Positions 14,619 through 54,574 of a stretch of DNA of 64,000 nucleotides are shown here, piece after piece. The translations under genes were made by a program, and so were the position numbers. The notes under the pieces are model-generated. The model searched no databases. It worked only from the letters and a program-made list of their open reading frames with translations, and was not told where the DNA came from. Source of the DNA: Myroides odoratimimus (lineage in GTDB: Bacteria; Bacteroidota; Bacteroidia; Flavobacteriales; Flavobacteriaceae); contig NZ_BCMQ01000006.1 in the NCBI RefSeq assembly GCF_001485415.1, positions 62,001 through 126,000 of the forward strand, in the 5' to 3' direction. The stretch's first letter is position 1; each line of letters starts with the position of its first letter.

Positions 14619-14641
14619 TAGAAACACACAAAATAAAATAG

Positions 14642-14670
14642 GTCCGAGTTATTCAACTCGGACTTTTTTT
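14642..14670 (+). terminator. Terminator of the DUF3276 gene
   Basis: Stem GTCCGAGTT / AACTCGGAC with an ATTC loop and seven Ts. Confidence 0.92.
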
Positions 14671-14671
14671 A

Positions 14672-14679
14672 TATCTTTG
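14672..14679 (+). promoter_or_regulatory. Promoter -7 box for the riboswitch-CLC transcript
   Basis: TATCTTTG directly after the preceding terminator and 12 bases before the fluoride aptamer, so the aptamer lies at the very 5' end of the transcript. Confidence 0.7.
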
Positions 14680-14690
14680 ACTTATAAATC

Positions 14691-14747
14691 ATAGGCAATG
14701 ATGTCTGCCTCGAACCGCTTCTCTATAGAATGCTGATGACGTCTAAC
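14691..14747 (+). promoter_or_regulatory. Fluoride riboswitch (crcB motif)
   Basis: All aptamer elements can be drawn by hand. P1 pairs AGGCA (14693-14697) with TGCCT (14706-14710). The P1 loop GATGTC (14700-14705) can form the pseudoknot with GACGTC (14738-14743). The AACCGC segment is followed by P3, TTC (14719-14721) with GAA (14728-14730), and then by the diagnostic CTGATGACGTCTAAC-type 3' end. A possible expression switch is GTCTA (14741-14745) pairing with TAGAC (14778-14782), right before the CLC start codon; this would hide the start when fluoride is absent. No intrinsic terminator is seen, so control is probably at translation. Confidence 0.9.
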
Positions 14748-14783
14748 ATAATAGTATACTAACGTAAAACTGAATGATAGACT

Positions 14784-16043
14784 ATGCATTTAAATTTCTC
14801 AAGCTTTAAACAAGCTTTTAATCCAAAAAATATTTCTTTTTCTCTACTGATAAGATGGTTCATTGCTATTCTCCTTTCTGGGACAATAATAGGTAGCATA
14901 TCTGCCCTATTCCTTTATATCTTAGAAGAAGTAACAGAGTTAAGAATCTCTCATACTTACTTATTATATGTTTTACCTCTTGGTGGTTTTTTAATAGGAT
15001 TATTATATCACTACTATGGCAAAGAAGCTAATCAAGGGAATAACCTAATCATATCAGAATACCACACTCCTTCTAAGACAATACCATTTAGAATGTTCCC
15101 TTTAGTTCTATTAGGAACTTGGGTTACTCATCTATTTGGAGGATCTGCTGGTCGTGAAGGTACTGCTGTACAAATGGGAGGTACTATAGCAGATCAACTT
15201 AATAAATACTTACATCTAGGTGCTGAAGCTAGAAAGACTATTCTTCTGATGGGAGTTAGTGCTGGATTTGCCTCTGTGTTTGGAACTCCAATAGCAGGTA
15301 TTTTCTTTGCATTCGAATTAATGCTCCTAAGAAATTTTAAACTTAATAGTCTATTACCTGTTATTCTGACAGCTTATATAAGTCATTACACTTGTATCGC
15401 TTGGGGAATACATCATACCATATACACTGTAGATATACCTATCTCACATACTATAACTACGTTACTGAAATGTGGAGTAATAGGAGTAGTATTTGGTCTA
15501 ACAGCTTATCTATTCATCCTGTTTTTACAAAAATGGGGAAAGCTATTTACCACAACTATCACCTACCCTCCCCTAAGACCTTTTATAGGAGCGCTACTCT
15601 TTATACTCTTAATCCATACGATAGGTAATGAAAGCTACTTAGGACTAGGTGTTCCAACTATCGTAGACTCCTTCACTATACAAATGAACTGGGAAGTATT
15701 TATACTAAAAATAGTCTTCACCACATTAATCTTAGGGGCAGGCTTTAAAGGAGGTGAAGTTACACCTCTATTCTTTATAGGGGCGACACTAGGTAGTTAC
15801 CTCTCTCTTTATGTAGGATTACCAATAAGCCTAATGGCTGCATTAGGTTTTGTAGCTGTTTTCGCTGGAGCTACTAAAACGCCGCTTGCTTGTACATTTA
15901 TGGGCATAGAACTTTTTGGCATAGAATATGCTATATTACTAGCGGTAGTATGCTTTGTAGCCTATTTTACATCAGGGAAACAAAGTATATATAGTGAACA
16001 GTTCAAAAACAAGAACAAGATAATAGATCTAAAATTGAAATAA
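14784..16043 (+). CDS. CLC-type transporter, probable F-/H+ antiporter (CLC-F)
   Basis: A 419-residue CLC protein with about ten membrane segments and no C-terminal CBS domains. The gating-glutamate motif is GREGTAVQMG (about 124-133), with Thr where chloride CLCs have Pro. The chloride-binding GSGIP motif is replaced by QGNNLI (about 82-87), and GGEVTP (about 322) stands for GGxFxP. Loss of GSGIP together with GREGT is typical of the fluoride-exporting CLC clade as I know it. The fluoride riboswitch upstream makes fluoride efflux the best assignment. Confidence 0.88.
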   Translation: MHLNFSSFKQAFNPKNISFSLLIRWFIAILLSGTIIGSISALFLYILEEVTELRISHTYLLYVLPLGGFLIGLLYHYYGKEANQGNNLIISEYHTPSKTIPFRMFPLVLLGTWVTHLFGGSAGREGTAVQMGGTIADQLNKYLHLGAEARKTILLMGVSAGFASVFGTPIAGIFFAFELMLLRNFKLNSLLPVILTAYISHYTCIAWGIHHTIYTVDIPISHTITTLLKCGVIGVVFGLTAYLFILFLQKWGKLFTTTITYPPLRPFIGALLFILLIHTIGNESYLGLGVPTIVDSFTIQMNWEVFILKIVFTTLILGAGFKGGEVTPLFFIGATLGSYLSLYVGLPISLMAALGFVAVFAGATKTPLACTFMGIELFGIEYAILLAVVCFVAYFTSGKQSIYSEQFKNKNKIIDLKLK

Positions 16044-16182: not shown

Positions 16183-16190
16183 TACCTTTG
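16183..16190 (+). promoter_or_regulatory. Probable promoter -7 box of the GltB-like gene
   Basis: TACCTTTG about 147 bases before the ATG, implying a leader of roughly 140 bases. No known RNA motif was recognised in the leader. Confidence 0.5.
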
Positions 16191-28660: not shown

Positions 28661-28715
28661 CTCGATTTTAGACCAACCTCTGGCGAGGTCCGTGTATGTT
28701 GTTCTGAAAAATAAC
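28661..28715 (+). promoter_or_regulatory. Structured 5' leader of rplS, possible autoregulatory element
   Basis: The leader holds a GC-rich hairpin in otherwise AT-rich DNA: ACCTC (28676-28680), TGGC loop, GAGGT (28685-28689). GACC (28671-28674) can instead pair with GGTC (28687-28690), so two alternative folds are possible. Ribosomal protein operons often carry such leaders; identity with a described leader was not established. Confidence 0.4.
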
Positions 28716-54410: not shown

Positions 54411-54574
54411 TGCTCACATTAGTACTGTTTGATAAACTCAACACAAACAAATTAAAATGGGTGAATCTTTGCAACTAAAGCATGCTGCCTTGCGCAGATC
54501 CTTGAAAAGCAAGCTAACTCAAAACTTGTTAATAAGAGAGTTTACGCGACTCAAACTAATGTGGGCTTTTTTTA
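54411..54574 (+). ncRNA. ssrS: 6S RNA (6S-Flavo type)
   Basis: The about 160-base region has a closing stem GCTCACATTAGT (54412-54423) with ACTAATGTGGGC (54555-54566), one wobble, followed by a T-run. An inner stem TAAACTC / GAGTTTA lies inside it, followed by a large partly unpaired centre and smaller hairpins (e.g. CTTGAAAAGCAAG). This long bubble rod ending in a U-run is how 6S RNA, the sigma-70 polymerase inhibitor, looks, and zapA-6S adjacency is known in other phyla. No ORF of any size fits here. Confidence 0.78.

Follow-up and report, generated by a model that had tools for sequence, protein, structure and literature searches.

A fluoride riboswitch upstream of a CLC-F exporter gene in Myroides odoratimimus, with a predicted switch helix next to the start codon

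Previous studies have established that fluoride riboswitches acting on transcription exchange the 3' arm of the aptamer pseudoknot into the base of a terminator (PMC11077080; PMC13273304). An aptamer-plus-hairpin model was fitted to the whole fluoride set in PMC13273304 and was interpreted there as covering translational riboswitches too; the main text of that paper contains no word beginning with Bacteroid or Flavobacter. A search of mostly non-subscription literature gave, among its best matches, no title or abstract opening dealing with fluoride riboswitches of Flavobacterium or the Bacteroidetes. With respect to translation in this group, Bacteroidia ribosomes are reported to keep the anti-Shine-Dalgarno sequence yet not to use Shine-Dalgarno pairing (PMC9976891), and initiation in F. 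johnsoniae is described as being tuned by secondary structure and by an A at positions -3 and -6 (PMC6847099). For the exporter, a review gives GNNLI/GMGLI, GREGT/V and GEVTP as the CLC-F signatures and describes CLC-F exporters as frequent in the phylum (PMC11139923).

The window analysed in this study is a stretch of 64,000 nucleotides from Myroides odoratimimus, and the features of the riboswitch locus are collected in Table 1. A preliminary description had folded a crcB-motif aptamer by hand at this locus, and its P1 stem, its pseudoknot and its conserved 3' end, TGATGACGTCTA (14734-14745), are all present in the sequence. The check proposed at that time, a search with the Rfam covariance model RF01734, gave a match on the + strand at 14685-14752 with 45.2 bits against a gathering cut-off of 34 (E 2.6e-9 over the window's 64 kb). 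This confirms that the element belongs to the fluoride riboswitch class, and its ligand is presumably fluoride. P1 is formed by AGGCA (14693-14697) and TGCCT (14706-14710), and P3, by reading, by 14717-14722 and 14727-14733 with one bulged base. The pseudoknot joins GATGTC (14700-14705) to GACGTC (14738-14743) through six pairs, one of them U-G; the RF01734 structure line for the match displays no pseudoknot, and these pairs were assigned by reading. Between the conserved 3' end (14745) and the CLC ATG at 14784 there are 38 bases, which corrects the gap of 36 given earlier. The ATG inside the conserved GATGAC opens a short frame at 14736-14762 (ATG ACG TCT AAC ATA ATA GTA TAC TAA), for the translation of which there is no evidence.

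Table 1. Positions of the riboswitch, its predicted switch helix and neighbouring features in the window.
Feature	Position	Strand	Basis
Intrinsic-terminator-like hairpin and T-run 3' of the DUF3276 gene that lies upstream, adjoining the riboswitch promoter	14640..14670	+	11 pairs
-7 promoter box TATCTTTG (consensus TAnnTTTG), predicted start ~14684	14672..14679	+	sequence and consensus position
Fluoride riboswitch aptamer	14685..14752	+	RF01734, 45.2 vs 34 bits
P1 stem-loop, loop containing the 5' pseudoknot strand 14700-14705	14693..14710	+	reading, Rfam match, MFE fold
P3 stem-loop	14717..14733	+	Rfam match, MFE fold
3' pseudoknot arm GACGTC, last three bases common to the switch helix	14738..14743	+	reading; switch helix from MFE fold
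Switch helix 5' strand, predicted fluoride-free state (five pairs, mismatch, three pairs)	14741..14749	+	MFE fold; comparative tests
Switch helix 3' strand (predicted), -10 to -2 from the start codon	14774..14782	+	MFE fold; unchanged in close relatives
CLC-F type fluoride/proton antiporter, 419 aa	14784..16043	+	PF00654, structure search, signature motifs

The RF01734 scan of the genome reported a single fluoride riboswitch match, the one in the window. Genomes with a match above the cut-off numbered 9 of 61 in a first genus sample, 50 of 398 in a second and larger one, 20 of 397 in the family and 40 of 395 in the class; these samples overlap one another. The 115 riboswitch loci collected from them comprise 95 leading a CLC-F gene, 14 leading a CrcB gene and six that lead neither as judged here. 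At the last six, where the gene labels come from translations that were read rather than from a family search, the contig ends (L061), an ion-antiporter-like gene (L078) or an enolase gene (L086) follows, or the match leads a cluster that reads as a PAP2-type phosphatase, an EamA-type transporter and an enolase (L084, L118 and L119). Enolase is already known from fluoride-riboswitch operons (PMC11139923). In L084, the likely GTG start codon falls within the anti-arm strand TATTGTAGGTG. Fifteen sub-cut-off matches from the genus and family samples were dropped: none of the 13 that had a locus (L013-L015 and L035-L044) had a CLC-F gene, and sub-cut-off matches, including the two of the 15 that had no locus, were therefore treated as chance.

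A promoter box had been noted directly 5' of the aptamer, and TATCTTTG does fit the Bacteroidota consensus TAnnTTTG. Since the flavobacterial -7 box occupies positions -12 to -5 in F. psychrophilum (PMC9723704), the box at 14672-14679 predicts a transcription start near 14684, one base 5' of the Rfam match. Among 92 CLC-F leaders, 82 contain TAnnTTTG in the stretch from 60 bases 5' of the aptamer match to base 14 of the match, and 80 of these 82 carry it at -19 to -2 from the match. A control stretch lying 186 to 260 bases upstream contains it in 3 of 92. From this position across the leaders, the mRNA probably begins with the aptamer, in the window too. A separate box, TACCTTTG, was read at 16183-16190 ahead of the next gene (16337), and the fluoride-defence unit is thus probably monocistronic, as judged from promoter sequences.

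On the 5' side, the T-run of the DUF3276-gene terminator stops one base before the -7 box (14640-14679), and the same abutting layout was seen by reading in L008, L012, L061 and the Myroides marinus locus L132. Elsewhere in the window, Rfam models matched a 6S-Flavo RNA at 54436-54543 (90.5 bits, cut-off 85) and an L19-Flavobacteria ribosomal protein leader at 28674-28701 (38.3 bits, cut-off 31.5). The characterization of the region as unremarkable was fair.

The protein encoded downstream matches PF00654 with 240.9 bits (cut-off 24.8). It lacks GSGIP and has GREGT (residues 123-127), just as had been described, and also carries GNNLI (85-89) and GEVTP (324-328). In a search of solved structures, the best match was 6d0j, an antiporter whose source species is given as Enterococcus casseliflavus in PMC11139923 (E 3.2e-71, residues 27-406 aligned), and the best chloride CLC reached 1.7e-10. 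The assignment to the CLC-F exporter type is thus confirmed by independent models, and the protein presumably exchanges fluoride for protons. The Pfam and NCBIfam models go no further than the names voltage-gated CLC and, with scores under the models' own cut-offs, chloride CLC, and these names would suit an ordinary chloride CLC that merely sits after a riboswitch. We regard such a coincidence as extremely improbable: three of three CLC-F signatures are present in the protein; 6d0j is a far better match than the chloride CLC structures; and GGEVTP, as well as AGREG followed by T, S or A, occurs in 92 of 92 riboswitch-led relatives. GNN is present in the N-terminal stretch of 80 of these 92, the other 12 having a different pattern or no pattern match. 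The closest named relatives, from a scan that may omit records very near the window, are from Myroides marinus (70% identity), Myroides sp. N17-2 (69%) and two Flavobacterium (53%). The genome holds two other CLCs, both lacking CLC-F signatures, and no CRCB-family match was found in it by a search that was positive in 10 of 14 control genomes. By these family assignments, the genome probably has no fluoride exporter of either known bacterial type besides the CLC-F protein.

How might the aptamer act on this gene? GTCTA at 14741-14745 had been described as complementary to TAGAC at 14778-14782, and this complementarity is found both in the sequence and in the minimum free energy (MFE) fold of the leader, which pairs GUCUA with UAGAC and, in addition, CAU (14747-14749) with AUG (14774-14776). 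Bases 14741-14743 are common to the pseudoknot and this helix, making the two states mutually exclusive. As a whole, the leader has an ordinary folding energy (z -1.41, equalled by 18 of 200 shuffled sequences). Both strands are unchanged in L060, L062, L066, L098, L105, L132 and L135, and such identity in the window and its close relatives alone proves nothing. Counterpart helices with different sequences occur in more distant leaders, with arm and complement being GTCTATTAAA and TTTAATAGGC in L008 (one G-U pair), CCTGATTAAT and ATTAATCAGG in L006, CCTGTTAT and ATAACAGG in L028, and CCTGCAAA and TTTGCAGG in L089.

Pairing of the arm was compared in 65 dereplicated CLC-F leaders from Bacteroidia. 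The arm pairs on average with -8.40 kcal/mol in its own leader versus -5.22 kcal/mol in swapped leaders (0 of 20,000 permutations as good), and with -4.45 kcal/mol when the leader is base-shuffled, 13.6% of the shuffles on average equalling the real leader. A helix of -5 kcal/mol or better with at least two arm bases is present in 55 of the 65 leaders (with at least three arm bases in 39), and the other 10 have no switch helix by this criterion. In 38 of the 55, that of the window included, the helix ends at most 8 bases from the start codon (near type), and the other 17 are of the far type. The pairs formed were 23 TA, 28 CG and 5 TG at arm position 3; 28 AT, 26 GC and 3 GT at position 6; and 25 CG, 18 AT, 8 TA, 3 GC, 2 TG and 1 GT at position 7. 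Tip counts speak for covariation; at position 3, for example, the leader prefers the arm's base in 48 of 60.

A rival explanation is that the start-adjacent helix is an inherited chance match and that some other leader feature regulates. It draws on the invariance of the two strands among the window and its close relatives, on the far-type leaders, which barely open the start when the arm is held (see below), and on the inflation of tip counts by relatedness: with a quick tree of the 65 leaders, the tree-aware test gave 1 to 4 supported independent contrasts per comparison and no significance in seven of the eight comparisons (all but position 7, T versus A), and position 6 went in both directions (0.6 versus 0.5). 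With so few independent contrasts, shared ancestry can inflate the comparative evidence. However, several distinct arm sequences (those of L008, L006, L028 and L089) each meet their own complement, and we think it quite improbable that the helix is such a relic. The comparative evidence for a switch formed by arm and start-proximal strand is encouraging, not final.

The effect of this helix on initiation was modelled as the cost of opening positions -10 to +5 around the start codon (ViennaRNA, 30 C), the arm being barred from pairing to mimic the pseudoknot. With the arm held in this way, the mean cost over all 65 leaders fell from 8.72 to 5.78 kcal/mol; with control blocks of arm length held, it was 8.22 kcal/mol, and on average 26% of these blocks matched the effect of the arm. 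The near-type leaders account for a drop from 10.05 to 5.66 kcal/mol (at least 2 kcal/mol in 31 of 38), and the far-type leaders for one from 6.72 to 6.16 kcal/mol (at least 2 in 3 of 17). For the window, the cost fell from 9.21 to 4.68 kcal/mol, and no control block equalled the arm. When both pseudoknot strands were held in the window, positions -3 and -2 went from 0.00 to about 0.8 unpaired, and A14781, at -3, sits within the switch helix. The start AUG itself stayed paired, if anything more so, by way of another local hairpin (A 0.38 to 0.13, U 0.39 to 0.06 and G 0.20 to 0.25 unpaired), and the mean unpaired fraction around the start went from 0.25 to no more than 0.36. In the window, the model thus releases the start only in part. 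A Shine-Dalgarno-like four-mer was found at -15 to -4 in 12 of the 65 leaders and in none of the other 53. As flavobacteria do not use Shine-Dalgarno pairing, the switch looks like masking of the start site without a Shine-Dalgarno sequence.

Most likely, the locus is a CLC-F fluoride-defence unit in which fluoride locks the pseudoknot and frees the start region, translation of the exporter following from this. Transcription would begin at ~14684, so that the mRNA would start with the aptamer. When fluoride is absent, the GUCUA and CAU of the arm side would be captured by the AUG (14774-14776) and UAGAC ahead of the gene, and the stretch from -10 to -2 would be masked. Mg-bound fluoride would lock the pseudoknot and withdraw the arm from the start-proximal strand; the start region would then be easier to open; and the CLC-F antiporter would be made, exporting fluoride in exchange for protons. 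The preliminary description had proposed much the same, with fluoride freeing GTCTA from TAGAC and control being translational. The MFE fold, the relatives and the pairing in own versus swapped leaders speak for the exchange; the release that it would bring is partial in the model, and the direction of switching and control of translation rather than by Rho are what we infer.

The same riboswitch and exporter could instead be joined by a transcriptional switch. In that case, transcription of the fluoride-free leader would end at an intrinsic terminator or through Rho, and the helix near the start would be the terminator or do no more than expose a Rho site. The fluoride riboswitches of B. cereus and T. 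petrophila are indeed described as transcriptional, with the same arm exchange (PMC11077080; PMC13273304), and one crcB leader (L018 = L115) has a T run after the helix. However, there are no terminator-like sites on the + strand between the window's aptamer and the start codon, and at least five T in the next 8 bases follow only 14 of the 55 helices, by a loose count in which the T are mostly scattered. We consider termination, whether intrinsic or by Rho, unlikely here, and start-site masking remains the preferred reading.

A second design may exist beside that of the window. With the P1 3' strand held, the mean opening cost of the far-type leaders fell from 6.72 to 4.37 kcal/mol (at least 2 kcal/mol in 10 of 17), and that of the near-type leaders went from 10.05 to 9.89 kcal/mol. 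The near type thus opens with the arm and not with P1, and the far type with P1 and hardly with the arm, so that the model separates the two types on average. In the 17 far-type leaders, the start-proximal strand pairs with the P1 3' strand at -6.37 versus -3.07 kcal/mol after shuffling (9 of 17 at or below 5% of shuffles). The near-type leaders gave -4.66 versus -2.97 kcal/mol, and as P1 complementarity reaches the same level in 13 of 38, the types are not cleanly distinct by this measure. Swap tests of the P1 helix gave 1 of 5000 for all 65 leaders together. Split by arm-helix position, the count was 27 of 5000 for the 24 leaders whose helix, if any, lies over 8 bases from the start and 1141 of 5000 for the remaining 41. 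A second helix that invades P1, outside the window's type, is suggestive only. Seven far-kind CLC-F leaders (L005, L011, L021, L031, L045, L048 and L097) carry a start-proximal AAGGCA or AAGGTA complementary to the P1 3' strand and a small GGC-NNNN-GCC hairpin 3' of the aptamer; L031 lies outside the 17 by helix energy.

Leaders of crcB genes were available from 14 loci. A strong anti-arm strand lies over the start codon in five (L018 = L115, L069, L116 and L126; four distinct), and in L018, L069, L116 and L126 it spans the AUG and codons 2-4, so that the codons for the CrcB N-terminus would also encode the switch. In L019, the strand over the start is weak, being equalled by 28% of shuffles; in L095 and L096, the strand lies at +19 to +26; and in the remaining six crcB leaders the best strand was matched by at least 8% of shuffles. 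The second design and the crcB-leader strands are leads. As to the wider notion that fluoride riboswitches of Bacteroidia switch initiation through an anti-pseudoknot strand flush at the start codon, which would lie immediately 5' of the AUG in many CLC-F genes and cover it together with codons 2-4 in some crcB genes, and through a second architecture invading P1, we hold the chances to be about even.

In kind, there is nothing unusual about a fluoride sensor ahead of a fluoride exporter. As the principle of arm exchange is already known, any novelty would lie in where the arm is captured, and its capture right at the start codon in bacteria that do not use Shine-Dalgarno pairing may be new. 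The unit offers a compact, testable example of riboswitch-controlled initiation in such bacteria and possibly a fluoride-inducible switch for Flavobacterium genetics.

Compared with known systems, the exporter resembles the E. casseliflavus CLC-F (PDB 6d0j, 6d0k and 6d0n) in keeping the GREG glutamate and GGEVTP. It differs, in the structure-search alignment, by the Asn of its GNNL, where the E. casseliflavus protein has Met79, the position named M79 in PMC12035849; a literature search on Met/Asn variants of CLC-F gave nothing of use, and the published signature admits both the GNNLI and the GMGLI types (PMC11139923). With the translational fluoride riboswitches of P. syringae and B. pseudomallei, which served as controls in PMC13273304, the element shares a fluoride aptamer on a non-terminating platform. 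It lacks an intrinsic terminator like that of the B. cereus riboswitch, and no Shine-Dalgarno-like core is present in the window's leader. It is like other members of RF01734 in scoring above the curated cut-off, in having P1, P3, a six-pair pseudoknot and the conserved 3' end, and in being followed by a fluoride exporter gene, and unlike them in that its predicted switch helix stops one base before the start codon.
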